Made by a program: the position numbers and the translations under genes. A stretch of 64,000 nucleotides of DNA, taken from assembly GCA_017506865.1 (NCBI GenBank), contig JAFCMP010000113.1, forward strand, positions 992,001 to 1,056,000, given 5' to 3'. Every line of letters begins with the position of its first letter. Position 1 is the first letter of the stretch. This document shows positions 1,824-64,000 of this stretch, piece by piece. The notes below the pieces were generated by a model. That model searched no databases. It was not told where the DNA came from and was given only the letters and a program-made list of their open reading frames with translations. This DNA is from Tribonema minus. Taxonomy: Eukaryota > Sar > Xanthophyceae > Tribonematales > Tribonemataceae.

Positions 1824-4048
1824 ATGCTCCTGACAAGGCGAGCGCTCTGCGTCGTGACGGTGCTGCACTGCTGCGCCGGATTTGTGCCTGGCCCTGCTCG
1901 CTTGCTGAGGCATAGCGTATGCTGGTCTGCTACGGAGAGCGTGGACGAGGCGCCTGTGTTTGGAGGACTGCAGCATGCGGGCGTTCTTTGCTCAAATACG
2001 GAGGCATCGCTGGTGAGCATACAGACGAAAACATTGGTATTGTCACCAGCTCCATGACCCTGGCTGGACTGGTGCTGCACTGCCGATTGTGCTCAAACCT
2101 GTCGGCTGCAAGGAAAATGCGACGTGGCGCACCATGCACAACATGCACACAAGATGCGGCAGCAGAGCCAAGCACTGCTGTGAGTGGATCATGTTGCTGG
2201 TATGGAGGAAGCATGCGTATCAGATTGTGGTTCATACTGTGCAAGTTATCCATCAATGCAAGCGGGATGCAGCAAGTAAGTGCAGGCAGATGTCAATGTC
2301 GTTCACTGCCTGGGTTCAGGCTTGCACCATTCGAGTGCGCAGCTTTTTATTGCCCAGAGCGCCCCATGGCACTCACCCCGTTGAGTTGTTTTGCTGGCCA
2401 TGCCTGCCTGCATTGCATTACCAGGCCTTTTATACTGAAGTTTTGGGCTTCCAGGATGAAACCGAGTTGCGACCAAACCTGCCCTTCAAGGGAGCATTTG
2501 TCAGAGCTGGCGGCCAGCAGGTGAGCCACCGCGTTCATACGATCCTCAGCTTCCGTTGCTAGGTGCTTGAAACTCGTGGCCACACTTAATTTGATCCGCC
2601 CTTCAAAGTGCCATCAGAACTTCATAGTGCCCAGCGACATGGCAACAGGGTGTCGTGGACCATGTCATCTGTTGCAAATGCCCCTTTTGACCCCTAACTG
2701 TCCATATGGATTGTTGGCCGCTTGTGTAGCTTGCACAATTCTCTCTGCTGAAAGCGAGTTTGAGCTGAGCATTATGCCTAAATGGCCCTTGCGCACTCCA
2801 CGCCTGATTGGCAGATGCATTTTTGCGTGATCCCAGAAGACCCATCTACGCCCCAGCCTCACCTTAAACCTAGCCCTTTTCCAGTCCACGATGGGTACAT
2901 GCATGACACGCGTGATTCATGGAGATGCTATAGATGCTGTGCCTACGTGCGACATACATAATCTACATGCATACATACCCAAGAGACCATCACAGAGCTC
3001 AGCAACGGCACTGGCCTCTTGAGCACACACGAGATGCGCATGCGTGCAGCAACTGCCCTCGATGATGACATTGTACGCTGCTTCCTTGGCTCACACCGTG
3101 ATGACGCTTGTGCCCTGCCATATGTGACAGACAACGGCTAGGATCAGGGTTCGCGCTCGCTGATGCTCGCAGTACGCGTAGTGTGCGGCAACTCTATTAG
3201 TACATACTTACCTGCCATGAGAGGCATTGCTCAGGCAGACGTGACGCTGCGGTCAGATTGCGTGGTGCCAAGCTTTGCAGTGGAGACTGTACTGTATTGA
3301 GACAGTACGTGCTGCGTGACTTTGGGCCAACTCTCACTGCAATTTCAAGCGATCCAAGGAAGTGACGTGCTTCTCTATGGCACCGCTCAACACGCAACAG
3401 CACGCACTGGTACTGGTGTACACCGACAGTTATAGGAATATTGAAGTATGAAGTACTTCCAAGTATAGGTATACCAAACATGAAGATGCTCGAAGGCTTT
3501 CAGACCAACAGAAAGAGGGAAGACCGGGCGCTGCTTGGAGCCGTTCCAATGCCGGCGAGGTGCAGGTTGCTCACCAGAGTTGTGTTGCGCGAACGCGCAT
3601 TCTCCTTCAACAGTCAATATTGAAGCTGCCTGGCACAAAACGCGCAACGCGCACACAAGCCCACCGCGCCAGACATCTCTACAACTCCAGACGCTGCCGT
3701 ATCCCCCTGCCCCCCCCCCCCCAAGCAGATACACCTGCTGGAGCTGGAATACCCAGACCCGTCTCTACAAATTCAGACGTTGCATGAGTATCCCCCCCCC
3801 CCTCCCCTCCTCCCCCCACCCTGCAGATACACCTAATGGAGCTGGAAAATCCAGACCCGGTGGACGGGCGCCCAGAGCACGGCGGCAGGGACCGCCATCT
3901 GGCCTTCACCATCCGGTCGCTGGCGCCGCTCGAAGCAGCGCTCAAGCGGCACGGCCGCACGTACACGCGCAGCAAGAGCGGGCGCGCAGCGATCTTCACA
4001 AGGGACCCCGATGGCAACGCATTTGAGTTCCTGGAGGCGGACGTGTAG
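1824..4048 (+). CDS. VOC/glyoxalase I-family protein, probably organelle-targeted
   Basis: Three exons (1824-2012, 2425-2520, 3827-4048), all joined in phase 0, give 168 residues. The mature part reads as a single vicinal-oxygen-chelate domain of the plant glyoxalase I-like type: GLQHAGVLCSN at the start, FYTEVLGF, then MELENPDP, GRPEHGGRDRH, and RAAIFTRDPDGNAFEF near the C-terminus. His and Glu residues at the positions typical of metal ligands are present. Substrate cannot be read from sequence; relatives act on methylglyoxal or similar small electrophiles. The first ~30 residues form a hydrophobic signal-like segment ending AGFVPGPARLLRHS. A Phe just after the likely cleavage site, then a basic stretch, resembles plastid leaders of secondary algae. 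The start at 1824 is the first ATG in frame before this leader. Intron 2 carries a duplicated acceptor-exon block and decayed 3'-end copies follow the stop (separate entries). Confidence 0.85.
3681..3826 (+). repeat. Duplicated acceptor-exon junction in VOC intron 2
   Basis: The end of intron 2 and the first 33 bases of exon 3 are repeated about 98 bases upstream. The copy at 3729-3761 matches the true exon start at 3827-3859 with four differences, and is preceded by its own poly-C tract and CAG. The intronic parts (CTCTACAA..CAGACG..GC..GTATCCCCC) also match. A remnant of a third copy (CCAGACAT then CTCTACAA) is visible near 3673-3688. Using the copied acceptor would run into a stop, so it is probably not a productive exon. 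Confidence 0.8.
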
Positions 4049-9200: not shown

Positions 9201-10313
9201 ACCCGTAACAGGGGCACATTGTGGCCCTACTGCGAGCTGAAGTGGAAGGTGAATGCTTGAATGCTCCTGTTGAACGACCACGCTGAAGCACATGGGTGCA
9301 GCATGGAGGCAAGCGCCCCCCACTGCAAGTGCAAGTTAAAGAAGAGACGCACCTGTTGAAGAGGAAGACCCTGTGCCACAGGTTGGGCCACATGCCGCTG
9401 TTGGGGTCGAGGAGGAACCACAGACCCCTCTGGAAGAGGGTCACGACGCCGCCGACGTGCCACCTGTAGATCTGCCTCAGGCGCCACTGGACGGTGTCGG
9501 GCGCTTGCGAACACAGAGACAGAAACTGGAGAGGTAGGCGGCAGAGAGAAAGAAAAGGGGCGAAGGGCGGGGGTCAGAGCTGCTATAGTAGATGGTAAGG
9601 TCTAGCACCAGACTTCGTCGCAAAAGGGAGTTGCAAGCCTGGCCATCTGTGCTTGATGTGTCAGTCATGAAGTGTCAACCCTGTGCAGCAGACCAGCTGC
9701 ACTTTGCATATGACACGCCACTGCAATCTACTTGCTGGCACGTGATCCGTCAAGATATGAGGCCTCATCCTGCACACATCCACCGATCACCAGCTTTTTC
9801 ATCTGCGGTGAATTCCCCGTATAAAAGATGATTCATCAGCAACGCAGAAGAGAAAATATACCAACACTGCAAGCGCGCGTTCCTCTCACCTCATCTGGCT
9901 CGAGCACGTACGCGCTCTTCCAGCCCAGCTTGAACAGCTCCAGGGAGGTCACCATGTCCTCGATCGGCGTGTCGGAGCGGAAGCCAAACTGCGACAGCGC
10001 ATACAATGCATGCACCACAGAGCATGACATGTGTGAGGCTGCAGTCCTCGGGGAATGCAGGTATTGGGGTCAAGCATGGTAGGTATGTGATGCCGTGCGC
10101 CCAGGGGTAGGTAGGTAGTGGGGTCAGAATGGCAACTGCGGCGGGCATGCGAAAGGCCACTCAGCTTTGGGCAGTGGGTAGTGGGTATGGCGATCAGCAG
10201 GGGGTACTCACGTCAAGGCCGCGGCGCAGGTGGTCGCGCTTGCACGCCTCGCCGCGGCAGGCACACTCAACGCTATTGCCTTGAAGTATACGCTTCTGTA
10301 CTCGACGCGCGTG

Positions 10314-10345
<32 letters not shown>

Positions 10346-13300
10346 ACATGTATTTGCGAAGACAAACTCACGTCAAGGCCGCAGCGCGGGTGGTCGCGCT
10401 TGTACACCTCGCCGCGGCGCAGCAGGCGCGCACACTTTCTTTGAATTCAAACGGTCCCCCATTATCCACAATATTGCGTACTTCGAAGTACATGATGAGA
10501 CATCCAGGTCTGCAACAGATGCGTCACACATGACCTACCTATCCTAGGTAAGCATCAGCAGCAGGTAAGCATCAGCAGGCACTCACGTCAAGGCCGCGGA
10601 GCGGGTGGTCGCGCTTGTACGCCTCGCCGCGGCGCAGCAGGTGCGCGCTTTTCTTGCATGTAGATGTACTTCAAAGTCTGCAACAGACAGGGATGAGATA
10701 TTCACGCGCGTGACATACCTATCCCAAGTAAGCATGAGCAGTGGCACTCACATCAAGGCCGCGGCGCGGGTGGTCGCGCTTGTACGCCTCGCCACGGCGC
10801 AGCAGGCGCGCGCCGTCCGCGCGCATGCCCGACAGCGCGTCGACTCGCCACACGGAGCCCTGGCCGCAGCTGGTGACGGCGCCCGCGCCGTCCTTGCCGA
10901 TGTTGGTGATGTTGAACTTGACGGTGCCCCAGTTGGCCAGGGGGTCGCCGATGCCATCGTCCTGGGGGGTATGTATGTATAGGGGGAAGGGTTAGCATCA
11001 ATGATAAAGTTGTGGAAAAAAGGCATATGCCTGACTTGGTGCATGGCCTGCTCTGAGTTGCAGTTAGGCATGCACGCGCTTCACGCCGCTTCTTTTAAAT
11101 CTGCAATGAGGCTCACGCTCGCTTGCAGTCGTTCACCCACTTGCAAAGTGGACTGCCTGAGAGTGATCAGCTGCTTGGGCTCCTTCGGCACTGTCGCGCC
11201 TCAGGTGCTGCGCGTATCGCTGAAGTGCCGCTCCAATTTTTGCAAAGATACACATGTCGCTGTCGACATATGACTTGTAGGATAAGAGGCTCATCATTGA
11301 ATCCTGAGAAATCACCGATGAATCAACACACATCTGCAGCACGGGTCTTAGGGCTAGGCTCACCTTGAACCTCTGCGGCGTCTGCACAAAGCAGACCTTG
11401 CCCCACTGGTAGCTCATGCCATCGGGCGCGAGCTCAAACAGGTACGGCATGGTCCTCTGCACGTAGGGGCAGACAGGGAGCAGCGGAGCAACGCACCATG
11501 GTTAAACTCACGAACACAAGACGTACGCACGCGAGCGGTGGTCAGGATGGGTCAAGCAAGGAGCAATGCTGCCTGGCGGCATTGCCTCTGCCGCATCCCT
11601 CCCTGGTGTGCCAGTCATCATTCGGGTGCGTAAGTTCAATGGAGCATGCATGCAGAGCGACATCACAAAACATGACCCGCGTGTATGTATATGCCGGGCA
11701 AGCCGCCGTATGAGCTGACAGCGGTGACAAGGGTCCTGAGGATCAACGCGCAAGGAAATGACGCCTTCTTCACACCGACAGCATAGATGCGCACCATGCA
11801 GGCGTGTAGCACACCGCCGAAGCAACATCTGCCATAGCGACGTCAGGCGCATGTGCTTTCGGGTGCTTGGCGTCAAAACTACTAATAGCTTCGGCAAAGC
11901 TGCATACGCGCCCCGATGAAGCGCATCAACTTCGTGTAGATGTGTGCATATGAAAGCTTGCAGTAACACAAACTCGCATTTGGCAAAGGCAGTTACATCA
12001 CCTCACAGCGCCTGGATACAGTGACCCACATGACAACTAGCAAGGCACCCGAACATTGCAATCACCTGCAGGAAGTTGGGTAGGAGGTAGTGGCGAGCGT
12101 CGTTTACGAGCACTGCCTTGGCCTCGCCTATCAGGGGCAGCCCAGTGTCTGGGCGCAGGTCGTAGATGGCCGCGTTGAGGTTGCCCGCCTGAGCGATGCA
12201 GCGGAGAGCCAGCAAGTCAGCGCTCCGCTTGAAGTTGAGGTGCGTGCATGCACTTCAACGTTGGCAAATGAGGGTGCTGCTTCTGGCGACTGTACGTTGT
12301 GAAATGCAGCAGCGCAAATGTCAACTAAACGCTGTGCCGACAGCTGTGGTCGAAAAAAGCGCTGTTGCAACTGGCGGTGCTCGATACGACTTGCGCCGCA
12401 AACATCGCCGACGCTTTGCTCAGAGCTGCAACTAGCATTAGCGGCACTGCAATGGGCACTGATGATTTATAGGCAGGCACGGAGCCAAATCGCTGCGCAA
12501 ACGCCAGCTTTGCAACACTATAGCTTCCGCGCCTGTCTGCGCCTGCAAAATCTGCAAAGTTCAACACCTCACAAAGTTGAGGTACATTCATACCTTGGGG
12601 CTGATGGTGGGCTGGCCGGCGTTCTCGCGCGTGTGGTAGACGAGAGCGGGCAGGTCACCGCGCTCCAGGAACTCGGACACGTGGCCCGGCTCAACCTGCG
12701 TGAACGGCGAGCGGTGCTGGCACTTGAACACGCGTAGTTGCAGTTGTTGCGGATTCAGGCAGCTGGCTAGGGTTGCTGATGCGAAGTTGAAGTGCTACAG
12801 GTCTGAAGCAACTCGAAGTAAGCAACAGCACTCTTCTGCCACTGGGCTCAGAGACTTGGCTGACCTGCTTCAACGAAGGCAACGCGGCCTCCCCGACAGA
12901 TCACTGGTGCTGACAATGGCATCTGTATATGCATATCTTCACACACGGAGCACGTGAGTTCACGCATTTGCAGTGGGCGAACCACAGAGGCCACGTGGTC
13001 TCACTGCCAGCATCTGCGCGCTGCCAGTCGACACCAATGTACCGACAACTGTGACCAATGTACTGACAACTGTGATACCAGCACACCTGTACACACTTGC
13101 TGACCTGCTCAAAGCTGCATATGCATCATCTGCACAAGCACATCTTTGTATTTTCAAGTCCCCGAGTTCATGCATTTGCAGTGGCATACCAAGGCGGGCA
13201 TGTGGTCTCGCCACCGGGTCATGTGCGCCGCCAGGTCAACACCATGGTGCAAACAACCGCGACGCCATCACAAATGTTCATGCCGCTGACCTTCTCAAAG

Positions 13301-16300
13301 GACACTGTGTCCCCCCCCACAATGGGGCTCGCGCTGGCAACGAGCTGCTGGACGTCGGCCATGGTGGTCAGAAAGGCCTTGAACGCGCGCCCCACCGCAG
13401 TTGGCCCTGGAAAGTTGAATAGCAGTTGGGTGGTTGATTGAGCAAATGAGTTCGGAGTGTCAGCAGCGGGGCGCAAAGGAAGAAGCTGGTCACAAGCTGA
13501 CGCCAAGACTGCACGGCGACGAAAATGTGAATGCATTCACATGTGGATAAGAAGGCTTTCACATGTGAATGTGAAATCATTTCATTGCATAACTAGTACT
13601 GACATCCAGTGTCTAGCAAGAAAATCAAGTCTCCATGCATCACTGGGCAGTAGTAGCGTCCGTAGCGTGCGTTCATAGTGTGAAGCACTGCTCATTGTAC
13701 CTCTATGTCCAGGCCAAAGGGAGCACAATAGTGGAATCACAAGGGCGAGTGCAAGCCCGGAACACTGCTGCTCGGCGATTACTACAAGGCTGAGGTAGGG
13801 CTAGGTGGGAGCACTCACCGCTGTAGTTCTTGTTGGGCATGTCGGTGGTGAGCATGGCAAACTTGTCCCAGACGTCGAGCAGGCAGCATGCGGCCATGGC
13901 GCGCGCCGTCTTCATGTCGATCGGCATGTCCTCCTCGTTGTCGGTCGAGCCGCCCGCCTCGTCAGCGCTGCTCAGCACGAAGGCGCACAAGTAGGCAGCG
14001 CAGCAGCAGAGTCAGCAATGTGCGTTGCGAGCATTGACTGGCAGCATCTGTTTGTTGATCAAAAACTGCAGTAGGTGAGCGGCGCTTGAATCGTACGCGT
14101 ACATACAGCCAGACAGTGCAGCTGCGTCAGCAAGGGCACTAACGGTGTACACGCGGCGACCAAGCTGCAAGTCATCAACTTCAAATGAGCGGAACGCCAA
14201 TGCTGAGAACTGCGCGTGATGACGCACACGGCGCCGCCAATGGTATGCGGGCCAGCCGCAAGTGATCAACTTCAAGTTTCAACTTCAAGTGAGCGGAGCG
14301 CCGATGTTGAGCACTGCGCGTGATGACACGCGGCGCCAATGGTATGCGGGCCAGCCGCAAGTTATCAACTTCAACATCAACTTCAAATGAGCATAGCGCC
14401 GATGAGCACTGTGCGTGATGACGCACCCGGCGCCAACGGTGTACGCGGGGGCCAGCTGCTGGATCTTGGCGGCGGCGAGGTGCTGCTGCACCGCGCGCTG
14501 CGCCTCGCGGAAGTGACGAGCCAGCGCGTACATGAGCGTGCACAGCTGCAGCAGCTCGCCGCGCCTGCGCTCGTCGAGGACCTGTGGGGTGGAGATAAAT
14601 AGGGGCAGAGAAGTAGGGCTGAGCGTAGTGCATGGCGGGTGGTTTAGGACGATCGTTTGTGCCGTTGTCGCCAGCGTGAAATTGTCGCCAGCGTGAGATG
14701 GGCAGGTGGCAGCGGCGTGCACCGCCTGTCCGACCTGCCAGCATCGTCGCTCAATTTGAACATTGCTACACACTTGCTCAGCAGCACAGTCCTGCAGGCA
14801 CTGCCGGCGCGACAATGGACCACGTACTCAGCGCCCTCTACCAGCAAGACCAACAAAGCTGAAGTTGACTCACCACAATCCTGAGCTGCTCGCGTTCGCC
14901 GAGGGTGACGCCATCGATGGTGGGGGGCTCCCAGAGCTGCAGCACGGCGCAGAGAGCAGACAGTGGTGGCACGTGAAACCTTGCAGTACAGCTTTACACA
15001 AGAACAACATGATACAAGGTAGTGGCGACAATGACAAGAAACAGATGAGCTGTGGCGCAGCTGGAGGGGTTTGTCAGGAGCCAGTGATGAGCAGCAACTG
15101 AGAAGGAACAACAGCTCTTACCCTCATGCTGACCCTAACCCTAACCCTGACCTTATCGTAACTGAATCCTTTTCTGATTAAAACCATGATTATGATCCTA
15201 AGCGTAATCCTAGGCCAAATCCTAACCCGGCTCGTGAACCTCATCCTATCCAATCAGACCTAACCCCTACTTGATTACTTCAAGCAGGAAGCGAACCATA
15301 GCCCCTGAAAGAGCAACTGTGCATGGGAAAAAAGCCTTACAATTTGTGTAAACCTAATTTTTCCAGTTGTGTCGCAACAGCTGAGAGAGAAGCTGTTGCT
15401 AGTTTTCAAGATTTAAACGGGCAACAATCCACAGGCTGAGGCGAGGTTAAAACCACTGCGCATCTGCCTTGTCGCTCATGCTCAACCTGCGTTTGTAGGC
15501 CACCCAAGAAAGTGCCTCATTGTCCTGTAAAGCTACTCTGAGAAATGCCAGCCATGTGAATTTCATGTGAACTTCAACTGTCATCAAATGTGCGCGTACT
15601 TGTGCACAGTTCACCTGCACTCGATCTGTACCCTCGCTTGGACTTGAACTTGAACTAAGGACTCAGGGACCCCCGCCCTGGCTATCGAGGCAGTGCTCAG
15701 TGCAACCCTGTACACATGTGAGCGTATACTGCAGAAGGCCCGCTTATGTGAGAGGGCGAGCGAGGCAACTGATACAGTTTCAACTTCTTGAAACGCCGTA
15801 CGACCGTAGCTACTAGCTACATAACACTATTGGCTTCTAAACAGAACTGAGATGTGCTGGAAGTAGTCGCGCAACTGACTGCGTGCTGTAGATCTACTAA
15901 TAGGCCCAAAGACTTGCCAAGACTGGCGGCCTTCATGGCCTCACATTTGCCACTCACTCTGAGTGCCTTGCAGTGACAGTAGTGGTCGAGCAGCATGGCC
16001 TATTTTCAATTGCTGTCACAAAATTAGCACCAGTATCAAAAACTTCAGCTGCTAGAAAGGTTGAAGTTTGAGGCAGGTCACATATTGTGTGTCAAGCTGG
16101 CCACAACTGTATAAGCTTGAACTTCATTTGACCTACCATTCAACACAAACCATACCCTCATCTGCACCGTCCCCTCTAACCTAGCTCGCCCTACTCCAAC
16201 AACAACTACTGAGAAGCGTGGCTAAACTTCACAGTCAAAGTGACGTCTACACGGAAGCACGAGGCCTTCAGTTTCTACCGCAGCTGTGGTCATGAAGCTT

Positions 16301-23109: not shown

Positions 23110-24848
23110 TCCGCCGCGCCGGTTGCGAGCGCGCCGCTGTCCTGTTGATTGTGCGCGTGCAAGCTGCGTGCGGCAGCGCTCCACGTCCGTCACACGCGCC
23201 GAGGTTTACGGTGGGGTGGCGCCCCCCTTGGGCGCCTGCCACAGGCTGCGCGCGTCGCCGCCGGTTCGCGTGCGGCGCGCGCGCGTTTTGGTGGTGGCGC
23301 GTGCGCAGCCGTCCTGCAACTCCAGCCACCACACATTATAAGTAGTGCACACGACACCCGCCCCGGGGGCCCCTACGGCACAGCAACAGCGTCGACATAG
23401 CCGACGCAGGCGCACGCTCTGCGCGCGCATGCCTGCAGCAGGTAGACGAGTCAGACTGTCACCATAGAGCCATAGAGACAGCAGACAGCCGCTGAAGCTC
23501 AGCGACGCTCGAGTTGAGTACAATAATCCCCCCCTCTCCCCCCCCCCTCCGCCAACTGGCCGTGAATGGTGTCAGTTGTGCTGTGCCGTCGGGACATTGG
23601 TGCACTGTCTCAGTGCCGCGGCGTTTCCTGACAAACCATCTTTACATACAAAGCGTACAGGCCAGCACCCCGCATCCACCAGCAATGCATTTATTTATTT
23701 GCCAGCGGAGTTCTTTGTGTCTTACCTCATGTGCTGTCCGTGCTGCCGCAAAGGCTTGCTTCCATACACTTCGAAAATAATCCTGCCCATTACCTATGTA
23801 CTTTTATAAATTAATATCGCTTCGCAAGGGGCGCGAAAAGCCCTATCTTTGGATGTGCACTCAATGCAACATTCCTTCTCCGAAGAGAGACTCAAACGCA
23901 AACAGGCTTCCCCCTCTTCACACTACCATTAACACCCCACGACCAAACCCTACCTGTGTACCTGCACCGCGCTCCTGCATCATGTCACGAGTTGCCCGCA
24001 GCTGCTGCCAGGTGCATCACCAATCTTCTCGGGGAATGCATTCAATGTTGCCTCTGTCAATGCAAGGATAAAACTTGGATCTTCAGGCTGAAACTCACAA
24101 AAAAGACCGTCCGCAGAAGGCAACAACGCCCGTAGGAGGCATCGTGCATGTGAGCGGCATGATGCACTGCTGCACTTGGGTGCGTCTGTCACTTTCTCCG
24201 GCATGTTGTGTATTCATCTGACCCAAAAAAACATAACCTATGTACACTAGGTGGCGGCGTTTGAGTGGTTGTCGTTGCGACACTTTCAGACTGTCATACG
24301 ACATGTAGATTCCTTACAGCTAGATGCCAATCATCTGGGCTTTCTCGCGCCCTGAGCGAGAATTAATATAAGTACACTAGGTGGATCCAACCAGAGGTGG
24401 ATGGGTGGATCCAACCCTAGTACGCATGTAGGATACAAAAAGAGGACACGGACGCTGTCAAGGGTTAGGTTATGACACTTTTCATGTGGGCGTTCTCTTC
24501 GTCCAATGAGTGCGCATGGACTGACCATGAACTGATATACTGAACTGACACGCATTGCTCAGCCATTTCGATCCCCAGCAAAAATCGCAGAACGCCAGCC
24601 AGCACGAGCGCACCACTTGCCCTTCGTTGCACCAAAGCTCACGCTCAACGTGGTGCTCAGTGCTGTGCGGCGAACGCGTGTGTGCGAACAAACCACAGGG
24701 AAGTTCAGCGGCAGAGATCTGGATTTGAACAAACTGCCGCCGGCCATAACACATCGCCACATATAGCAGAGGTGGCAAAGTGCGTGGTGCATGCTGTCAT
24801 TGCGCAGCACCGCGCTGCGACCGCTGCAACAGTGAGAGCTAGCGAGTA
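23110..24848. other. Intergenic region with retroposon copy B; no gene recognised
   Basis: The first ~250 bases are GC-rich 3' flank of the orphan gene. A pyrimidine run (23526-23552), an AT-rich part (23680-23830) and a 117-base retroposon copy (separate entry) follow. Open frames are short and unsupported. The last few hundred bases should include the PP1 promoter. Confidence 0.5.
24242..24384 (+). mobile_element. Short retroposon copy B (5'-shortened) with target duplication
   Basis: A ~117-base insert (24255-24371) is bounded by the 13-base direct repeat gtacactaggtgg (24242-24254 and 24372-24384). It shares 111 aligned bases with copy A at 7659-7769 with one visible difference. It lacks the first ~40 bases of copy A, as expected for 5' truncation. 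Both copies inserted at a target containing GTACAC. Confidence 0.75.
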
Positions 24849-27800
24849 ATGGACATCAGCGACGATCCGGTTGTTTTGGCGAAGGAGCTTGATGATTGCA
24901 TCACGAAGCTGCTGTCTGCGAAGAACCAGAGGCCGGGGACGGAGGTGCAGCTGCCGGAGCTGGATATACACAAGATAGTAAGGCGAAGCAGAGCGCTGTT
25001 TCTGGAGCAGCCAATGTTGCTGGAGGTTCGAGCCCCCATCAACATATGCGGAGACACACATGGGCAATATCACGATCTATTGCGGTTGTTCGAGCTGGGG
25101 GGGTTCCCGCCAACAGCCAACTACGTATTCCTGGGAGACTATGTGAGTGCCTGGTGATGGTTTACTGGTTGCGCAATGAGATTGAGGCATAGCGAACGGC
25201 ACAAGCTTCAACTGCAGCACAAATGACTTGCTGAAAACCATCGTGCTGCATGAACCTCAGCAGTTTCCATCCACCTAGGTTGCAAAATGCATGCAAACAG
25301 TACAGGCGGCAGCATGCAGTGCATCAACCAGGAGCAGTCGTGCACCTATTCTATGAACAGGCAAGCAATCCCAGTTGCATTCGCAATCTGGTGTGTGGCT
25401 AGACAAGTACTCTTACTACATGCAGACTCAGGTGCGCAGGCTGGAAAATGTCGCCAACCACTGCATCTTCCCTCAGCGACAATCAATCATCCCGTTCATT
25501 CATCCTGCTGAGCTTGTGCAACAGTTAATATTGTCGTGCAACTGTGACGCACCGGTGCTGTGCCCTACTTGGTGCGACATGCGTGCCGCTTCAGGCGCTG
25601 CAGTCTTTGCTGCGCTGTGCAGGGTCCGCGTGCACTACCGCTGCTGCTGCAGCCTGTGCTACACATATGCGCGATTAGATCGCAGGCTAGCGTATGACGA
25701 CTGTATCGCTATGAAAGAACCATTTCATAGTGCCCAATGTGGGGTGGCATCAAAGTTGTTGCGACGGATAATGCAACCGATCATTTACATTCTTGTAGGC
25801 ATTGCGATCAACAAAATGCTACACCTAGCCCTAGGGTCTGATGCTTTGCTGAGACCTGAAGCACTAGTGGTCTCGCCAGTCACTCTGCTGCCGTTTGTGC
25901 AACTTCAAGTGTTGCAGCTTCTCACGCAGTGCTGCACTGCATGTACTACCCATTCCGCTGCTGCTGCTGCTACCACTGTCAGGTGGATCGTGCGAAGCAA
26001 AGCATGGAGACAATAGTTCTGCTGCTCTGCTACAAGCTCAAATACCCGGAAAGCTTCTTTTTGCTACGGGGCAATCACGAGTGCGCGAGCTTGAACCGTA
26101 TCTACGGCTTTTACGACGAATGTGAGTCCCGGGTTCGGCAAATGCGACAGCAGACAGGGCTCGTCACAAATGATGCTGCCAGTTACGCACTTCATTGTAG
26201 AACATCACAATTTCCCTCAAATTGGACAGTTTTGAGATTGCCCTCTGCTGCAGCTGGCCGTTTGATGTGCGAAGCTAACAGCGTGCAACCCCATCAGTCG
26301 CTGTTGACATTCAATGATTGAAGTATGCTCGGAGCTTAATGGGGTTTCTCATGAGGACACTTCCTGGGCCTGCAACGCCTGTGACCGGCACTACTTATTA
26401 CGATCAGCACCGCGGGCGCGACTGCCCGTGGTATCTGCCACAGCAGCGCTCAGCGCGAGGCTACAATGCAGATCTGGTGGGGCCTTCAAAAACGGCTGGT
26501 TGCCTGTGGTGGCCATCACTCTGGGCGCTGCATTGCAGGAATATTTGAGCACTGTCCTACTTTGCATTGAGCACTAGTGGCAGGAAGCAGCTGAGCACTG
26601 TGTGTCTGTTACGCTGAGCAGCGGCATGCAGCAGCTGACTGTTGTCTCAACCTGCGTTGAGCACTGTGGCAGGCAGTAGCTGAGCACTGTCTTGGTGGCT
26701 CCAATGCTAGCAACGACAGCGCGCCTGCATGCTGGCAACATTTGCTTATTTGCAGGTCACTGCTGAGCACTGTGTTGAACCATTTAAGCACTGCTGCCGA
26801 ACGCGCCACCACATGCACACAAAGGGCACGGCAACAATGTTACCCATTCGCTGCGCAAGATACATGTATGCACCTGATCTCTGCCTTAGCGCAGAGCCAA
26901 GGCCGTGGGAGCAATGGCATTAAAGCGTGCAAATGCACGGCATTATAATGTGACTGATGTGAGGCACCAACACGATGCGCTGCTCTGGCAGTCCCGCGCG
27001 GCCGCGACGCGGGGGCTGCAGCCCCATTTACGCCGTCCCGCCACCATGGCGTGACCATGCGGTGGTGATGCTTACCCTCGCACCTCTGCGCACACACACC
27101 CATGCTGCGTCTGCCGCCTGTGACTCCCCCCCCACAGGCAAGCGGCGCTACAGCGTCAAGCTGTGGCGCATGTTCAGCGACTGCTTCAACTGCATGCCCG
27201 TCGCCGCCGTCGTCGAGGACAAGATCCTCTGCATGCACGGCGGCATCAGCCCGGAGCTGCAGCGCCTCGGCCAGGTGCTCGAGATTCCGCGGCCGATTGA
27301 CGTGCCCGATGAGGGCCTGCTGTGCGACCTGCTGTGGAGCGATCCGGAGCCGAATATCTGCGGGTGGGGGCGCAATCCGCGCGGCGTGAGCTACACGTTC
27401 GGCCACGACGTGATTGAGGAGTTCCTGCAGAAGCACGACCTCGACCTCATCTGCCGCGCGCACCAGGCGAGTACAGTACACTTCTGGTACACTGTAGTAC
27501 GCTCGGGGTACACTTGGACACTTGAACTCGCCGATCATCTGCCGCGCGCACCAGGCGAGTACACTCTGGGGTACGCTGTAGTACGCTCGGGGTACACTCT
27601 GCACACTTGAACTCGCTGATCATCTGCCGCGCTCACCAGGCGAGTACACCGTGCGGTACGCTATAGTACGCTCGGGGTACACTCTGCACACTTGACCTCG
27701 ATGATCATCTGCTGCGCGTACCAGGCAAGTACACTTTGGGGTACACTGTAGTCCGCTCAGGATACGCTCAGACCCGTAGAACTCACTTACTCTGGACTTG

Positions 27801-48473: not shown

Positions 48474-51400
48474 CTAATACGCGTCCTCCCCCTCTTCGAT
48501 GGGCACGGGGGGGAGCAGGATATCGTCCGGCAACGGCGCGTTTGCGTACGCGCCCGCGCCGTTGGACATGGACACGACGCCGTTCGCCGCAAAGGCAGCG
48601 CTCAGGTTGGCGGCGCCGTTGGAGTTGGCCGTGATGGTGTAGGAGACGGCGGCTTTTGTCGGCGTTGAGGTGACGTTCTGGCCGGGCCGGTAGACCGTGT
48701 TGTTGTTGCCGTAGCCGAACAGCTCGCTGTTGTACTTCTCGCGGCTGAGGTTGGACATGCCGTTGAACTTGGTCTCCACGATCTTGAAGAAGACCTGCGC
48801 CGTCAGCAGGGAGTCGCTGCCCGCCTGGTGCTTCTGGCCGATTCGTTCGACCTGACGGTATGGGGGCACACGAGTGATGCGGGGTGTCAGCGCGCACATC
48901 ATATCGCGTTGGGTGTCAGCGCAGTCAAGTTGATGCGTGATGCAAGCGCAAAAATCAAATGGCGCTGCAGTTCAGGTTGATGGTGACGAAAGCGCAAGAA
49001 GCGAACTGCGCTAGATGTCAGTACAGTTCAGATTGTCGGCACAGTTCAGATTAATGCGTGAGGAAGGCGATTGAATGATGTTAGGAGTCAGCGCAACGAG
49101 CGAATTGTGCTAGACGTCAGCACAATAGCTATTGTGTGCGGCACGAAGCGGCAACCGCTTGTGTACTTCTGCAGAAAGTGACCTCTGTAGTACTTTGGCA
49201 ATGTGCAGCACCAATGCGGCAATGCTGGCTTATAATCAAGGTTAGGGTCAGGCGCTGACACGATCGTTCCCTTCCATACAGAAAGCAACATTCCTGAACA
49301 AGCAACCGCAAGTGCTGTGCACATGTGCGCACATTATGCTGTTTACGGAGTGCGCAGCGTGCTGTTGAGCACAAGTGAATGTGTCAACACGTGCGCTGCA
49401 GAGTGCCGACGACTCACAAATACACATTAAGGCATGGCGATTTCAACTAAAGCAGTGCCTTGCCGGGCCCGCATGCGTTGTTGATGCACTGTCACTAACC
49501 TTCCCCTATCGCTAAACCTAAACCTGCCATCCCTGGTTTCAGACTTGACAGCTGCACAGGTCAAACCTGACAAGGGGGCAATTGACTAACCAAAACCCAT
49601 CTCCTGACCTCAACCCTCACCCAACTCCTACTTGTGCTGATTGTGCATACCGAGAGGTCGTCGCCAAGCTTGTTGAGGCCCCCGTGGAAGCCATCTTGGC
49701 TGGCCATTAGGTATTTGATATCATACAGGCGCGGGAAGTACAGCTTGAGCAGGTGGAAGAACTCCTTCTCCTGCCCCGGCAATGCGCACGACGTCAGCAC
49801 CTTGAGAAGATAGCCAAAATCATAACCGCTGCGTGTGCGGGCGAGCGCAATCAGACGCGCACGTCACGTCAGAGGACCGTGTGAGTGAGGGTCGGACTGT
49901 GAGTGACGTGGTCAGACAACAGCAGAGTAAGGTCTTCCGGTTCGGGTTGGGTCAGCAGCAGAAGGCCGACACTTCAGGTACTTAAGTCGTAACCGCTGCA
50001 TGTGCGGGCGAGTGCAACCAGACATACGTCAAAGGGCCGTGTGAATAAGAGTTGAAGTTTGGGTGACGTGGTCAGGCATCGCAGGTGAACAGAGAATTGG
50101 GATTAGGATTGGGAATAGGGTTAGGGTTCAGGTTAGGTTAGCAGCAAACAGCCCGGCACTTCTCGAGTGGCGGTGATAGTGGGGGGCACAACAACTGTGC
50201 TGCTACTGAACTGACTCGTGCACTTAAACTTGGGGCTGTGGAGGTGACACTCCGCTTACGTATACACAGGAGCTCACGTAGCTTGGTTGCCTAAACAAAT
50301 TAGAAGCGCCTTTGCCAGCGTCTCTCACTGCACGATGAACTGCGCTCAGGTGCGTTTTTTCCCCGAAATGTCATGGAAGAGCGCGCAGCCAACAGCGCGC
50401 ACTTAAGGGAGGCATGGTGGTTGTATGGTATATGTTTGTGCAATGAGTCGCGAGCACGGCAGTTGCCGTGACGTACGCGACACGCAACAGAGGTCCGCCT
50501 TTGCGAAGCACGTGACTGTGACATGAGTAAAAGAGGTGCACATAATCAGGCGATATGTCATCACCACAGCTAACCCTGACCCTAGACTAAGCTGACTCTA
50601 GTCCTGAGCATCCAGCGAGTGGCAAAGGGCCCGGCTTCACCCGGCAAAAAAATATGAGACGAGTACAAGAGTCAGAGTACAAGAGTCAGGGTCATACTGA
50701 CGTGCACATGTTTGGAACGGGTGCATTGGAGCCAGCAATATTCGTATGACCCGCGCGTCAACCAGTATGTAGTATGTAGTACTAATACGCGTGCACACCG
50801 CGCAGCAGCGCCAACATCTGACCCTAACAATCGCCATCGCAGCGCTGAAGGCCAAGGAGGCATTGTGTTGTGTTGTCAGGGCAGCGGGGAAAAAAAAAAA
50901 ACGCTTGCTGTGTGAGGCACGCGTACAAAGATGGCGCAAGTTTGTGCTGCAGAAGACGGCTTCCTCAGGCGCTCATGGAATGAAGTCTCATCCCAACCCT
51001 AACCCTAACTCTAACTTTAACTAACCTTAACTCTACCCCTAACCCAACCGCCAGTGCTCGGATTGCCGTGCTGCTCCACACATACTGCACCATCGTGCGC
51101 GCCAGGCGGCGTCAGCATATGTGCAGTGCGCACAGTCTACATGCACCCCACGTCTTGTTGCTTGCGCTGCTGCAGCGGCGCACCAGTGCGGCAAAACGCC
51201 GCAGCAACAATCCTACTTCCCGCCACTATGTAGAAAGGAAAGGTACAGTAGGTAGCACACGCCTCCTGCTGTCCAATAATACCTCCAGATGCGGCAAGAG
51301 GCCAGCAGCAGCTGCAGTAGCGCTGACTGATGGCGGCAGGCAACTACCACCGAACGCCGACCGTCACCCTCACCCTGACAGCAGGGAGGTTCGGTGCCAT

Positions 51401-55323: not shown

Positions 55324-55372
<49 letters not shown>

Positions 55373-58300: not shown

Positions 58301-61300
58301 CAGCCGCTGCAGGTCGCTGAGGCGCGCGTCCCACTCGCCGGGCAGCGGCGCAGCCTCGGGCTTTGCCGACAGGAACCACGCGCGCCAGTCGCGCGGCGCC
58401 TGCTCGAAGCTCGCCGCGAGCCCGCCGAATGCCGCGCCGACGCCCCTGTCGAGCTCCGTCACGCTGTCCCACGCGGCCGTGTCGATCCAGTCGCGCGCGG
58501 GGTTGGCGCGCTGCGCGGCGCGGTCCGCGACGGCGCCGCCGCCGTGCAGGAAGAAGGCAAACTCCTCCGGCGGCACCTTGCCCGCGCGCGCGAGGATGCG
58601 CAGGCACAGCTGCAGCGCAAAGAGCAGCTTGTGCTGCTCGAACAGGCCGCGGCACGTGTACTGGTACACGGCAAGCGTGTGGTGCTTGTTGATGACCTGG
58701 CAGCGCTCGCGCACGTCGTCATCTTCCGGCGCCACCGCCGCCGCCGCCGCCGCAGCCGCCGCCGCCGCCGCCGCCGCCCCCGTGCGCGCCCCCGCCGCGC
58801 CGCCGCCGCCGCCGCCCGCCGCGGCGCCGCCGCCGCCGCCGCCCGCCGCCGCGCCGCCGCCGCGGCTCTGCTGTATGCTCGCGTTGAAGAGGTCGACGTA
58901 CGCGTCGAGGGAGAACTGGTACATGGGGTCGACGCGCGCGAGGTCGTTGAGGACGAAGAAGGCGACGCTCGCGCGCACGGCGGCGGGGCGGTACGCCTCG
59001 CGCGCGGCGTCGATCTTGAGCGCCGTCTCCTGCGCGACGCGCAGCCCGAGCGTGACCTCCTCGCTCGTCGTCTTGGACTGCTGCAGCGTCGCGACGAGGT
59101 TCAGGTCGTCGAGCAGCGAGCCCGTGGACTCCGCGAGGAGGCGCAGGATGGTGTTCTCGAGGTCCACGAGCTTCTTGGTGCCCGCCGCGACGCGCACGGT
59201 GAGCTCCGAGGACTGCTCCTCCAGCGCGGGGCGCTCGCGCTGCACGACGATGCCCAGCAGCTGCGCCTCGAGGCCCTCCTGCTTGACGCCAAAGTTCACG
59301 ACGACCGTCTTGGACGACACCTCGGGCGTGTAGTGCGGGTTGCCAAGCTTGGTCGTGATGTACAGGCGGAAGTCGGGCGACCAGTCGATCTCCTTGTCGC
59401 CGAGGCGGATCGTCTCGCGCGAGCCCTGGCGGATCGTGGCGCGGCTCAGCACGGGCTCCAGCGCGGGGTCGAGCTCCTCCAGGACGTCCTGCAGGAGGCA
59501 CGGCGCGCCGTACGCGATGCACGCCGCGACCGTGCGCAGGCAATCGCGCATGTTGAGGTCGACGACGCGCAGCCGCGCCGCGCCCTCCATTGCGCGCACC
59601 CAGCGGTTCGCCTGCCCTTGCGGGTCTATCATGAGCGGCCAGCGCTGGCGCGCCGCCGTGACCATGACGCCGTTCTCCGCGGAGAAGTCGTCGCGCGGGA
59701 GGCCCTGCAGGTTCCACGCGCGCACGTCCGTCGGCGCCGCGAGGAACGCCGCGAAGGAGAACGCGTCCGTGTGCGGCAGCGCCGCGCCGCGCACGAGCGC
59801 GCTCCAGCGCGCCACCAGCGCGCCGCGGTACGCCGCGTCGAAGGGCCCCGCGTACGACAGGAACGCCGCAGCGACGAGCGCGTCGCCCGCGAGCCGCGTC
59901 ATCTGCGCGCCGTACACCGCGATCGACTCCTGCCAGCGCACGTACTCGCCCGCGAGGCCGCTCACGAGGCGGTCCGCGCGCTCGAGGCGCTCCGCGAGCA
60001 GCCGCGACTCCTCGGTGAGCGCGTTCTTCTGCGCGACGCTGGCGTCGTAGCGCGCGCGCAGCGCGTCCACGCGCGCGACCACTTCCGCCAGCGCCGCGCG
60101 CGCCGCCGCGAGCCCCGCGCGCTTGTGCGCGAGCGCATCCTCCGCGTCGCGCAGGCGCGCGCGCTTGGGCGCGACGTCGCGCGCCACGCTCGCGTAGATG
60201 TACACGGCGTGCACCCAAATGCACAGCGCGGACGCCGCGCCGCTCACCTTGGCGACCGCCTCGGGGGTGAACCCGGGGTCCGACACATACTTCTTGACCT
60301 GCCAGAGGGGGGGGGGGGGGGGGGGGGGCGGGGGTAGAGTGAGGCTCGGTGGGGGGGGGCACGGGGGGGGAGTCTGATCAGTGTTGCTTGGTGACGCTTC
60401 CAGTAGGGTGCCATGGCTGATTTGAACGACGATGCCAGGTTGGGTGCGGCCTTAATAAGGGCCAGGGACCCGGTTGGGGTTTGGTTTGCGCAGCTGGTAA
60501 GTGCCGCTTAGGGTTAGGGTTAGACGGCATTTGCATGAACAACATGTTGGGCTGTAGCAGGTTTAAGGTCAGGGTTAGAATCAGGGTTTCACCGTCGCCG
60601 CTGGCGCTCCAGGCGCGGTTACAAGCTGTGTTGTAACCAGCACTCACTGTTTGATTTTGATGAGCATGTGTATACCTCGTCAAAACATGGTCAACGACTG
60701 CTTGTAGTTGTCAACATCATAATGGTCAATGACTCCTGCAGACAGTACAGAAACGGTCGCCCTCTTCAGCGTGGGGTTCACAACTCGACTGCGTATGCGC
60801 GCGCGCACCTTGTTCATAAGCGCGCTGCTGACGTTGTCCTTGTCGTACCCCTTGATGCTCTGCAGGAAGTCGCTGCGCCCGAGCACCTGCTTCGCCGTCG
60901 CCCAGTCCGTGCTCTTCCCAAACAGCACCATCACCGCCGCGAGCACCGTCTCGACGAGCGGCGGCGGCTTGGTGTACGCCTTGACCTCCGTGATGGCGTT
61001 CTTGTCAAGCTTGTCGACTTCGGACAGCGCCTTCTCTAGCGCGGGCAGCGCGACGGCGAGATCTGCCTGAGCATCATCGGCGATGGCCTTGCACTGCGCC
61101 TCCTCGCGCGCGATGCGCTCCGACTCGGCCTCCACCTGCTTCTTCTGCTCCTCGGCCGCGCGGCGCTCGCTGACGATCTCGACGAGCAGGTCCTCGCAGT
61201 CTTTCTGCGCGGCCGCCACGACGACCTGCGTGCGTACATATGTACAGCAGCATATTGTTTATCAGCACCAGGTCTTGGTTGCAGTAGGATGAGATTTAGG

Positions 61301-64000
61301 GTTAGCTCACAATCTCCACTAGCAGATCTTCGCAGTCTTTCTGCGCCTGACCCTAACCCTAACGTAACCCTAACCCTAACCCTAACCCTTCTGCGCCACC
61401 ACGACCTGCGAGCCAAAGTGCGTACAGTATCATGTTCACTAACAGCACCAGGTCTGGGTTGCAGTTAGGGTTCGAGTTATGGTTAGGGTCAGCTTACGCT
61501 TTTGGCGAGCAGATCCTTGCAATACTTCTGTGCGGCCGCCACAAGGACATGCGCACCAGCGGCGGATATGGTCGTAATGCGTGTTCATCAGCACCAGCCA
61601 GGTCTTGGTTGACGGTTCCAACGAGCAGTGATTTGCATGGCCGCCGTGATGATCTGCGGACCAGCGGCAAATGTGGCCGTAGCAGCATACGGTTTAGTAG
61701 CAAATCGTGCTTATTTCCGGTGTTGTTGTATACTGTAAAAAAGATACAGTTGAGCGATACAAAACAAAATAGGGCCCGCTCTGAATGCAACTACTAACTG
61801 TTCTGTCCCTGCCGCCTCCACCGCTTGAAGACTCTCATTCTAAGCCCAACCCAGAGCAAAGCGCGTGAGCAATACGATTTAGTGTTGAGTCAGCAAGAGC
61901 AAACCATCATTTTGACTGCGCACACCACCGCCACAAGAAAAACTAGCCATGCAGGTGAACGTTTGAACCCTAACCCTAACCCTAATACCACTCTTGGGGT
62001 ATCAGACGCATGGGAGTCGTGCAGGCGCAACAAGCATGCCTGACCCTAGCATTAACCACTCACCCTACCCATCTCTTACTCAATGCTCAGCTCGAGGCGG
62101 ACTGCTTAAACTACAAGGTGCTCTTAACAGAAAGCATTCATGTCCACTGGTACAGGGACGGCTACGATATAAGAGCGCTCGATATAAGAGCGGTCACGGT
62201 ATAAGAGCGGTCTGACGGCTGAACACGGATCTGGTCGACATAAGAGCGGTTTGGTGCTGCTCGGGGCTGACCGCTCTTATATCGTGTCCACCTACCACTA
62301 GCCGCCTCAAGAACGATGCCTGAACAGCGGCTTTTGCATGATATTCAAAAACGCTCAAGCGCGCATCGACCAGTCACAGAGTATAGCGCACTGCGCGGTT
62401 GCTTTCCGGCTTGATTCGCAGCCAACTTCAACTGGTGGCACACTAACCCTACCTAAATACTTCAAACCCTAGGTTTAGGGTTAGGGTTAGACTAGGGTTA
62501 GGGCTAACCCTACTTAAGCACAAAGGACGATATAGGAGCGGTCACGGTATAAGAGCGGTGAAGTTGGCGGGACGGACCCGCTCTTATATCGTGACCCCCC
62601 CTGTAGCACAGTGTCGCTCGCGCTTGGTACCCTTAGTGCGGTTTCTGTTCTTGCCATAGACTAAGTCTCCGTTTTTCATTTGCGACTTTGCACGTAGACT
62701 AGGCTCTCCTCGAATGCACCTGGTCAACCGTTCCACACGCTTCGGTTTAAAGCTAGGTTTAGGGTTGGGGCTGGGGTTAGGGCAAGCGCACGCCGCCATA
62801 AAACGGCACTCAGAAGCTATGCAGAGAAAGGTAATGTGCGTGGCGTGTCACCTTCTTCTTCTCCAGCTCCGCGGACATGACTTCAACTTGCTGCCGCGCC
62901 TGCTCGAGCTTGGTGAGGCCGTTGCCGAGCTTGCTGCAGGACTCGCTGAGCGACCCGCGCCTCTCCTCGAGCACTGACTTGTAGCCCTTGACCAGCTCTA
63001 GGTAGTTGGTGGGCGTCACGTAGTTGTGGCGCTTGAGCTGTGGAGCGGTGAGTGCAGAAGGCACAAGCAGGATGTATGTGTCAACTCTGAGGCGTCGCGC
63101 GGTTGTGGCGCATAAGCTCTTCAGCATCAAATGCAGAAGGCACAAGCAGAACATGAGTGTCAACACTGAGGCGTCATGTAGTTGTGGCGCTTGAGCTGTC
63201 AAGCGGAGAGTGCAGAATGGCGCAAAGAAGATGTTGCATCCAAGTCTGTAGGGAGTGTTGTCAGTGTTGCGGAAAAAGAAAAAAAAGCAGTGCACCTGAC
63301 TCACAGAGTATGGTGGCTCACAATACATGCACATGAACAGGTACATATGTGTACTTCTGCTGAAGTAAGTGTCTGCAATGGCGTGCAGCGCGGAAACAAG
63401 GATTGAGGCTCTTCAATTTGTTTTGTGGTGAGCTCAGGACAACAAATTGTAGGGTATGAACTTGCAGCGCTTGGCGAGGAAGCGCAGCCGTGATGTGTAC
63501 CTTGCACCGGCATGCGGCCATACGCATGTATGCAAGGCATGTGCATGTATCACACATACCCCACGTCGTTCAGCATCAGCAGCTACTCCTGCGCACATGG
63601 CTTGACAAAAACGGTGATTTTCGCGCATGGCACGGGTCCACACAAAGCAAAAATCAAACTCTTAGACCTGCACCTACGGCAGTAGTGGTCCATGCGCACA
63701 CAGCATAACTCTTTCATCGGTGAGGGTTAGGGTAAGGGGGTCAAAGTTAGGGTTGGAATCAGTGCTAGGGCGTAGCACCGCCTCGGCCACAGCAGTGACA
63801 CTGCTCAGCAAGTGACAAAGTCGAGCACACCGAGCTGCTCAAATACAGTATTGTACACAACAGCAGGGCCCAGCCCCTACTAGAAGACAACAACAACGCA
63901 CCTCCTCCTGCATGCGCGCGCTCGCGTCGATGACGCTCGTGTGCATGTCGCTGAAGATGCCGGCGATCTTGGGCCGTGACCCCGCATCGTCCAGTTTGAC
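55397..64000 (-). CDS. Axonemal dynein heavy chain, C-terminal ~1539 residues (partial)
   Basis: Five visible exons (64000-63902, 63037-62852, 61225-60809, 60298-57680, 56695-55397) join in phase 0. The N-terminal two thirds lie off the right edge. In order: the end of AAA4 with HNYVTPTNYLELVKGY, a coiled-coil stalk and microtubule-binding region (RRAAEEQKKQVEAESERIA; GYDKDNV then YVSDPGFTPEAVAKVSGA), the returning stalk, AAA5 (NGVMVTAARQRWPLMIDPQGQA; QDVLEELDPALEPVL), AAA6 (GQAPTALALLQEA; ANCHLMLSWMPELEKAV; FRLWLSSAPNPKFP), and the C-terminal domain ending VYMYPVRTGTRERPSFVI and PEFWTKRGVALLLS. This is a flagellar/ciliary motor chain; the C-terminal sequence is nearest in feel to single-headed inner-arm types (DNAH1/3/7/12 group), which I infer only loosely. 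Long Gly/Ala homopolymer linkers interrupt the protein around 58720-58870 and near 56240-56280, unusual for dyneins. Confidence 0.95.
56838..56867. repeat. Interstitial telomere-like repeat
   Basis: Short TTAGGG-type tract (gggatagggttagggtaggc) in the last dynein intron. Confidence 0.75.
57548..57568. repeat. Interstitial telomere-like repeat
   Basis: Short tract (gcttagggttagggtttg) in the last dynein intron; another loose unit follows at 57630-57660 next to the exon donor. Confidence 0.7.
58728..58866. repeat. Coding (GCC)n/(CCG)n tract in the dynein gene
   Basis: About 140 bases of nearly pure CCG/GCC repeat inside the largest dynein exon encode runs of Gly and Ala between VDLFNASIQQSR and the segment starting RCQVINKHHTLAVYQYT. 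The frame is kept throughout. Confidence 0.9.
60306..60327. repeat. Poly-G (poly-C on the minus strand) tract at a dynein acceptor
   Basis: A run of about 20 G on the plus strand is the polypyrimidine tract of the acceptor at 60299 when read on the coding strand. A second G run lies at 60350-60370. Confidence 0.9.
60505..60527. repeat. Interstitial telomere-like repeat
   Basis: Tract gcttagggttagggttag in a dynein intron; a looser unit follows at 60566-60590. Confidence 0.8.
61180..61680 (-). repeat. Tandem copies of a dynein acceptor-exon junction
   Basis: The acceptor and first ~45 coding bases of the exon starting at 61225 (GCGGCCGCGCAGAAAGACTG) recur at least three times upstream in the intron, near 61322-61410, 61507-61560 and 61625-61665, with increasing divergence. 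The intronic block AGCACCAGGTCTTGGTTGCAG and relatives recur at the same spacing (~110-190 bases). The first copy is split by a telomere-like tract. Confidence 0.85.
61339..61397. repeat. Telomere-like tract inserted in a junction copy, with 9-bp flanking duplication
   Basis: The 41 bases 61348-61388 are CCCTAA repeats (with one variant unit) and are flanked on both sides by ttctgcgcc (61339-61347 and 61389-61397). Without the insert the flanks form the dynein junction copy. This looks like addition of telomeric repeats at a healed break. Confidence 0.8.
61964..61988. repeat. Interstitial telomere-like repeat
   Basis: Three clean CCCTAA units (gaaccctaaccctaacccta) in a dynein intron. Confidence 0.9.
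62149..62607. mobile_element. TA-flanked MITE, ~455 bp, with repeated GATATAAGAGCGG palindrome arms
   Basis: The left end (62151, TACAGGGACGGCTACGATATA) and right end (62605, reverse complement TACAGGGGGGGTCACGATATA) are imperfect inverted repeats, with TA at both borders as in Tc1/mariner-type insertions. Inside each end, copies of RTATAAGAGCGGTCACGG occur in both orientations, so long hairpins can form. The middle has a telomere-like segment in both orientations (62463-62516). No coding capacity. It lies in a dynein intron. Family assignment rests only on the TA borders and CAGGG ends. Confidence 0.7.
62463..62516. repeat. Telomere-like repeats in inverted orientation inside the TA-flanked MITE
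   Basis: The segment AAACCCTAGGTTTAGGGTTA continues with further TTAGGG-like units, then CTAACCCTAC, so units in both orientations alternate within ~50 bases. Confidence 0.75.
62750..62785. repeat. Interstitial telomere-like repeat
   Basis: Degenerate GGGTTAG/GGGGTT units (ggtttagggttggggctggg) about 70 bases from a dynein donor. Confidence 0.65.
63010..63232 (-). repeat. Tandem copies of a second dynein acceptor-exon junction
   Basis: The acceptor and first ~25 coding bases of the exon starting at 63037 (CTCAAGCGCCACAACTACGT) recur twice upstream in the intron, near 63088-63114 and 63172-63200, with shared intron blocks (GCAGAAGGCACAAGCAG, TGTCAAC.CTGAGGCGTC). Unit length is about 75-84 bases. 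The outer copy is the more similar to the true exon in its coding part. Confidence 0.88.
63718..63760. repeat. Interstitial telomere-like repeat
   Basis: Degenerate tract (ggtgagggttagggtaaggg) in the rightmost dynein intron. Confidence 0.75.

Follow-up and report, generated by a model that had tools for sequence, protein, structure and literature searches.

The window, by which we mean the whole 64-kb stretch of DNA analysed here, contains no N and consists of intron-rich eukaryotic DNA with a GC content of 52-75% in 2-kb bins. We built models of six genes by hand: a VOC protein (glyoxalase fold), part of a cellulose synthase (CESA), PP1, RPC5, CAF1 and an axonemal dynein of the DNAH2 / 1-beta type. 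The models comprise 25 introns and 19,637 intron nt (the intron numbers, such as CESA_i8, are our own), with 24 GT-AG introns and a single GC-AG intron, PP1_i3. Pfam matches support VOC (7.1e-10, Glyoxalase, spliced protein), CESA (2.6e-16), CAF1 (3.7e-24) and RPC5 (1.7e-33). Searching the CESA region against Pfam in three frames with stops masked gave no match, presumably because its exons are split among frames. Rfam returned no match at the gathering score, and a search for relatives with the dynein protein as query found no match in viral_contigs.

Eight of the modelled introns, spread over five genes, carry at one splice junction an array of real direct tandem repeats, that is two to four copies side by side, and one further array lies over the VOC stop codon (Table 1). 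The arrays were detected by self-BLAST, by ungapped diagonals and by gapped self-alignment with shuffled controls, for which each modelled intron was taken with up to 100 nt of flanking exon per side. An earlier sequence-only reading had named seven arrays and proposed intron self-alignment against shuffles; all seven were recovered by the three methods, and CESA_i4 and the VOC stop-codon array, which it had overlooked, were added. The eight junction-array introns scored 42-100, against maxima of 15-22 across 25 shuffles of each. In six of the eight arrays the top-scoring pair of the gapped self-alignment spans the junction; in CESA_i2 and CESA_i4 the top pair is intronic and the exon part is visible only in the copy alignments.

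Table 1. Repeat arrays and related features of the window, with their functional (real) and spare splice sites.
Feature	Position	Strand	Copies and unit	Coding part	Sites	Support or remark
VOC_i2 acceptor array	3676..3859	+	2 copies, unit 86-98 nt	33 nt exon	exon starts: 3827 real, 3729 spare	self-alignment; Pfam Glyoxalase across junction
VOC stop-codon array	4026..4424	+	3 copies, second from 4150, third from 4300			
CESA_i8 donor array	10195..10813	-	4 copies	≤62 nt exon end + GTGAGT	donors: 10751 real; 10586, 10371, 10211 spare	self-BLAST, diagonals, gapped self-alignment
CESA_i4 donor array	12920..13300	-	2 copies, shift 186-208 nt	~10 nt exon	donors: 13290 real, 13104 spare	possible decayed third copy, uncertain
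CESA_i2 donor array	14156..14456	-	3 copies + partial fourth, unit ~99 nt	~30 nt exon per unit	donor: 14426 real	
PP1_i2 intron-internal repeat	26563..26718	+	shift 90			score 30
PP1_i3 donor array	27439..27787	+	4 copies, unit ~86 nt	20-28 nt exon	donor: 27467 real	
CAF1_i4 acceptor array	49817..50084	-	2 copies, unit ~165 nt	12 clear nt of exon, perhaps 25	exon starts: 49828 real, 49995 spare	self-alignment; gene matches Pfam CAF1
DYN_i2 acceptor array	61169..61681	-	4 copies, shifts 105-180 nt	~50 nt exon	61225 real; 61405; 61548 (AG lost); 61653 partial	gap-free dynein alignment
Telomere-type (TTAGGG)n insert	61346..61389	-				inside DYN_i2 exon copy at 61405
DYN_i1 acceptor array	63012..63248	-	3 copies, unit 79 nt	26 nt exon	exon starts: 63037 real; 63116, 63195 spare	gap-free dynein alignment

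Four arrays lie on the donor side (PP1_i3, CESA_i8, CESA_i2 and CESA_i4) and four on the acceptor side (VOC_i2, CAF1_i4, DYN_i1 and DYN_i2), bearing out the claim that both kinds of junction are copied recurrently. Units of ~79-215 nt agree with the ~75-215 proposed. A coding part is present as had been said, although its range is 10-62 nt rather than 15-65 nt, the shortest being those of CESA_i4 and CAF1. The possible third copy of CESA_i4 and the partial fourth copy of CESA_i2 are omitted from all counts.

Best repeats scoring at least 21 occur in 12 of the 25 introns, eight of them placed at a junction. The other four are PP1_i2, the clearest tandem repeat free of exon contact, and the weak repeats of CAF1_i5 (25), PP1_i1 (22) and CESA_i10 (21), the last two scoring about at noise level, as the top shuffled score was 22 (in another intron). 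Both of these were counted as internal: the CESA_i10 pair reaches 23 nt into the exon with a copy alignment that does not support the exon part, and the PP1_i1 pair, which at a shift of 314 is not truly tandem, ends near the acceptor with an unconvincing exon part. Scanning the whole window for matches between segments at most 450 nt from the cut point gave 32 rows, 20 of them at a score of at least 30 (in shuffled 2-kb tiles the 95th percentile was 23 and the highest score in 60 was 32). We classed ten of the 20 as tandem arrays whose sequence is non-coding or mixed. Nine of these touch a coding edge, namely the VOC stop codon and the eight splice junctions, and the tenth is PP1_i2. The other ten comprise eight in long ORFs or exons of repetitive or skewed composition, one CAG repeat and one 32-nt pair, 348 nt apart inside DYN_i2 (score 30). 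Beyond the modelled exons and introns (~30 kb), the VOC stop-codon array is the sole non-low-complexity match at a score of at least 30. Tandem Repeats Finder reported short-period repeats away from junctions, including one of period 46 within CAF1_i5.

At the VOC stop codon each copy includes ~17-23 nt of coding tail, and no splice site is involved. The best pair of the whole-window scan begins 52 nt past the stop; the coding part rests on a separate alignment, in which the coding tail by itself scores 11 against a shuffled 99% value of 10.

In all eight junction arrays the functional site is the exon-proximal copy, a consequence of geometry. The arrays contribute 16 spare copies, and the stretches from each real site to its most distant copy add up to 2,034 of the 19,637 modelled intron nt (10%), in agreement with the proposal that splice sites are multiplied and introns lengthened. 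The GT/GC or AG dinucleotide is intact in 15 of the 16 spare copies (donors 9/9, acceptors 6/7); the acceptor at 61548, which has lost its AG, was left out of the test of coding consequences. PP1_i3 carries GC donors in all four copies (three GCGAGT and one GCAAGT). This intron (27467-27730), the sole GC-AG intron among the 25, carries an all-GC donor array. Use of the 15 intact spare sites is predicted to shift the frame in ten cases and, in the remaining five, where the extension is a multiple of three, to run into an in-phase stop; 12 of the 15 extensions meet a stop. With all 15 sites expected to break the protein, the spare copies are predicted to be decoys unless their use is regulated.

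A single copy is enough for each protein. The dynein model aligns gap-free to a DNAH2 chain over 224 residues spanning both array-bearing junctions, and the PP1 model aligns gap-free to a solved homologue over 280 residues spanning its array. Pfam matches, together with the reading frame, cover the array junctions of VOC and CESA_i8. The CAF1_i4, CESA_i2 and CESA_i4 junctions lie outside the best Pfam stretches, and the models there rest on reading frame. The earlier claim that one copy suffices therefore holds for dynein and PP1 by alignment, for VOC and CESA_i8 by frame and Pfam, and for the other three by frame only.

These results bear on whether the copies could be true extra exons, tandem or mutually exclusive, or duplications turned into new introns as in the potato RdRp gene. 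In DYN_i2, the exon copy at 61405 ends in GTGAGC and that at 61548 in GTAAGC, both donor-like, so that GTRAGC stands at the copy junction; in the VOC and CESA_i8 copies the reading frame stays open across the exon part. Both features would fit such exons. However, each copy has only one exon end, most spare-site extensions hit a stop, and dynein and PP1 match their homologues with a single copy, and we give this explanation very little credence. Tandem exon duplication in the usual sense, with a whole exon and both splice sites, was considered and set aside, the GTRAGC-ended copies of DYN_i2 being its nearest approach. Nor did we find introners within the window: self-BLAST gave nine distant pairs above 70 bits, of which seven are GC-rich triplet repeats and two are dispersed repeats, neither of these two lying in an array.

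Some other repeats of the window are described here in their own right. A dispersed 129-bp direct repeat, 96% identical, occurs at 7656-7784 and 24250-24377; an AATAAA lies close to the end of the 7656 copy, and the 24250 copy has a repeated GTACACTAGG on its flanks that resembles a target-site duplication. A 101-bp copy, 95% identical, links 29700-29800 with 35119-35219, ~5.4 kb away; its source is an alanine-rich stretch of a long ORF at 34.5-36.5 kb, and the copy at 29700-29800 lies upstream of the modelled RPC5 exon. Within the dynein intron DYN_i2, at 62140-62620, the motif ACGATATAAGAGCGGTC is repeated and inverted; as a 17-mer query it had no exact match in viral_contigs. A single long ORF at 42248-44911 contains internally repeated segments and has a DnaJ domain near its end.

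The arrays differ in age, as had been claimed. The first and second PP1 copies mismatch at 0/26 exon and 3/52 intron positions, whereas the intron parts of the CAF1 and CESA_i4 copies mismatch at 26/119 and 27/149. Up to four copies of unequal divergence, one of them holding a telomere-type insert, in a window without N are hardly what collapsed haplotypes or misjoined reads would produce, and we regard an assembly artefact as very improbable. In CESA_i8 (10203-10811), mismatches between spare copies number 19/179 in exon parts and 89/254 in intron parts. Simple decay does not account for this difference; the exon parts may owe their conservation to unequal events or to conversion by the constrained exon. 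Five changes set the CESA_i8 spare copies apart from their consensus within the final 54 nt (42 for the fourth copy), and all five, by eye, alter an amino acid. Summed over all spare-spare pairs, which are not independent, mismatches are 49/358 in exon and 170/632 in intron parts. We rejected general selection on spare exon parts, since this contrast is driven by CESA_i8; the other arrays give 30/179 against 81/378 (sub-sums made by hand, with an exon figure for DYN_i2 that takes in the telomere-type insert).

The same data speak to the idea that the spare sites are selected, either as decoys for unproductive splicing through frameshift or nonsense-mediated decay, or as aids to exon recognition. 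The intact dinucleotides, the uniformly disruptive outcome of using them and the conserved exon parts of CESA_i8 are what it would predict. Yet retention in 15/16 copies is not decisive as a sign of selection on the dinucleotides, as it is not clearly above a neutral expectation (P ~0.02-0.16, a rough estimate by hand), random extensions usually give a frameshift or stop anyway, the five changes in CESA_i8 all alter the protein, and the array at the VOC stop codon involves no splice site. We consider selection of this kind improbable.

We then asked whether coding edges are special, using two placement nulls, own-intron and any-intron, with intron lengths taken minus the copies; a placement counted as junctional when it overlapped the exon by 10-70 nt. 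That range, like the unit lengths and copy numbers, was chosen by hand, the versions with n=13 reuse rounded values, and the sample is one window with six genes. Among repeats scoring at least 21, 8/12 lie at junctions, against 3.83 expected under the own-intron null (P = 0.0046) and 2.25 under the any-intron null (P = 0.00036). At a score of at least 30 the count is 8/9 (P = 2.9e-5 and 9.3e-6, respectively). Adding the 32-nt DYN_i2 pair gives 8/13 (P = 0.0075 own-intron, 0.0008 any-intron) and, at a score of at least 30, 8/10 (P = 1e-4). When CESA_i4 and CAF1_i4, with their 10-12 clear exon nt, are not counted, 6/12 remain (P = 0.11 own-intron, 0.014 any-intron), or 6/13 with the DYN_i2 pair added (P = 0.13 and 0.022). 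The enrichment at edges is significant under most of these ways of counting but not under all.

The units themselves are lopsided: their coding share is at most 0.36 in all eight arrays (P = 0.0003 if uniform, a post hoc test), and they are therefore mostly intronic with a short exon tail. A detection bias, in which slower-decaying exon parts would keep junction arrays visible for longer, was rejected because the intron parts alone score 24-48 in all eight arrays, against shuffled maxima of 11-19.

The main challenge to an edge preference is that replication slippage or unequal exchange acted at any non-coding place, and that the junction excess reflects geometry and small-sample luck. A long unit in a short intron can hardly avoid an edge; freed of their copies, the CESA_i8 and CESA_i2 introns are short, and a random unit would reach an edge with p 0.73 and 0.66. 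The own-intron test loses significance when only six junction arrays are counted, and repeats away from junctions do exist, both inside introns and in the Tandem Repeats Finder output. On the other side, the own-intron null is rejected when all eight are counted, most strongly at scores of at least 30, and the ~30 kb outside the models yields only the VOC stop-codon array. We find this account doubtful, though it deserves to be taken seriously. The excess at edges may stem from more frequent breakage there or from small-sample chance, and we put a true mutational bias behind the excess slightly on the probable side. The proposal of a junction-tied process survives in its recurrence at junctions, and its splice specificity is weakened by the stop-codon array and the intron-internal repeats.

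A further feature of the window is its runs of TTAGGG/CCCTAA, of which there are 22; nine permuted classes gave 0-4 apiece, 13 in total. Nineteen lie between 50103 and 63738, in CAF1 and dynein introns (8 sense, 11 antisense), and the others are at 8164, 15132 and 15197; none occurs in PP1, VOC or modelled CESA introns. They may mark a region near a chromosome end or be linked to introns, two possibilities that are confounded here. One of them forms the insert within a DYN_i2 exon copy and has the 8-nt GCGCAGAA repeated on both flanks. In mammals, telomerase is described as mediating insertions at breaks, some of them accompanied by duplication of the target (PMC2246262). The telomere-type inserts are likely repair scars separate from the arrays, and we infer a link between the two.

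On balance we lean towards local tandem duplication at the DNA level, arising from break repair, tolerated, and over-represented at coding edges. A segment of ~79-215 nt spanning a coding edge was copied head to tail, once or repeatedly, the likely route being fill-in and end joining at staggered breaks or paired nicks, which would give a small tandem duplication. The duplication would be tolerated, as the exon-proximal copy still splices and the exon frame is kept; the remaining copies would decay as intronic decoys, and the intron would grow from its edge. The arrays are head-to-tail direct copies, as tandem duplication during break repair would give. Unit ends were inspected for short homology or filler: those of VOC share the hexamer CCAGAC, with weaker cases in other arrays (judged by eye, with no null). 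Several observations temper this reading of break repair: the array duplications themselves bear no direct sign of breaks, 19/22 telomere-type runs are confined to CAF1 and dynein introns, the CESA_i8 contrast exceeds simple decay, and units longer than 100 nt in four of the eight junction arrays go beyond the class of under 100 bp described for CST-Pol alpha. The edge preference, in turn, is tempered by the own-intron result with CESA_i4 and CAF1_i4 removed and by intron-internal repeats, PP1_i2 most clearly.

The sequence-only reading held that no named system matches, which proved too strong, as two published cases come close. In potato RdRp, a tandem duplication over an intron-exon boundary made an intron (Ma, Lan, Niu 2016, PMC4974935). 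As in the arrays described here, the unit spans one intron-exon boundary and the copy brings splice signals; the donor activated there belongs to the exon portion of the upstream copy, and the GTRAGC ends of DYN_i2 resemble it. The potato case is one event in one gene, with the new intron proven by RNA-Seq, whereas we describe, from genomic sequence, 8/25 introns and a stop codon, up to four copies, and donor as well as acceptor sides. In Daphnia, young introns are described as growing passively through one small duplication after another, with staggered double-strand breaks given as the cause, and internal repeats are found in 55/90 new introns and 100/617 other introns (PMC4202315). There, too, intron length grows by direct repeats, but the accessible account places them inside introns and makes no mention of copied coding-exon ends, the feature seen here.

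Three other systems are more distant. The model of intron gain by AGGT proto-splice-site duplication (Rogers 1989, Hellsten 2011, as cited in PMC4974935), with cases in Drosophila (PMC2891723), likewise multiplies splice signals by tandem duplication of coding sequence; in that model a duplication internal to an exon gives one new intron, whereas here existing junctions are copied together with an intron part. We set this model aside, as the copies pile up on a single border with intron sequence included. Small tandem duplications are produced in mammalian cells by CST-Pol alpha fill-in and end joining (PMC8355091). These are also head-to-tail copies, arise at staggered breaks and are common in genomes; the insertions spoken of there are under 100 bp, and the portion of the paper available does not connect them with exon edges. 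Break repair has also been invoked for direct repeats near splice sites (Rogers and Bendich 2025, PMC11782384). These repeats share with our arrays their place at intron borders, but they are 4-30 bp long and pair the 5' with the 3' border, whereas ours are long copies at a single border.

Recurrent junction arrays were absent from the titles and abstract beginnings of the matches listed in our literature search, in which subscription journals are mostly missing. Known, then, are junction-crossing duplication and young introns lengthened by repeats; new is the recurrence at coding edges and, relative to the available parts of the papers compared, the stacking to four copies and the stop-codon case. 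A broader and more tentative proposal is that in this genome coding edges (the stop codon as well as splice junctions) act as hot spots of duplication, where introns grow edgewise and gather decoy sites. This would be a mutational habit of the whole lineage, and it may be tied to transcription and to telomere-type end processing at breaks.

Among the papers compared, junction-crossing duplication appears as one case, that of potato RdRp. If about a third of introns hold such arrays genome-wide, as 8/25 do here, intron lengthening and splice-site multiplication would become directly observable. Such a genome would show how the spliceosome chooses among near-identical adjacent sites, and would let the question be asked of whether exon edges are hot spots of duplication.
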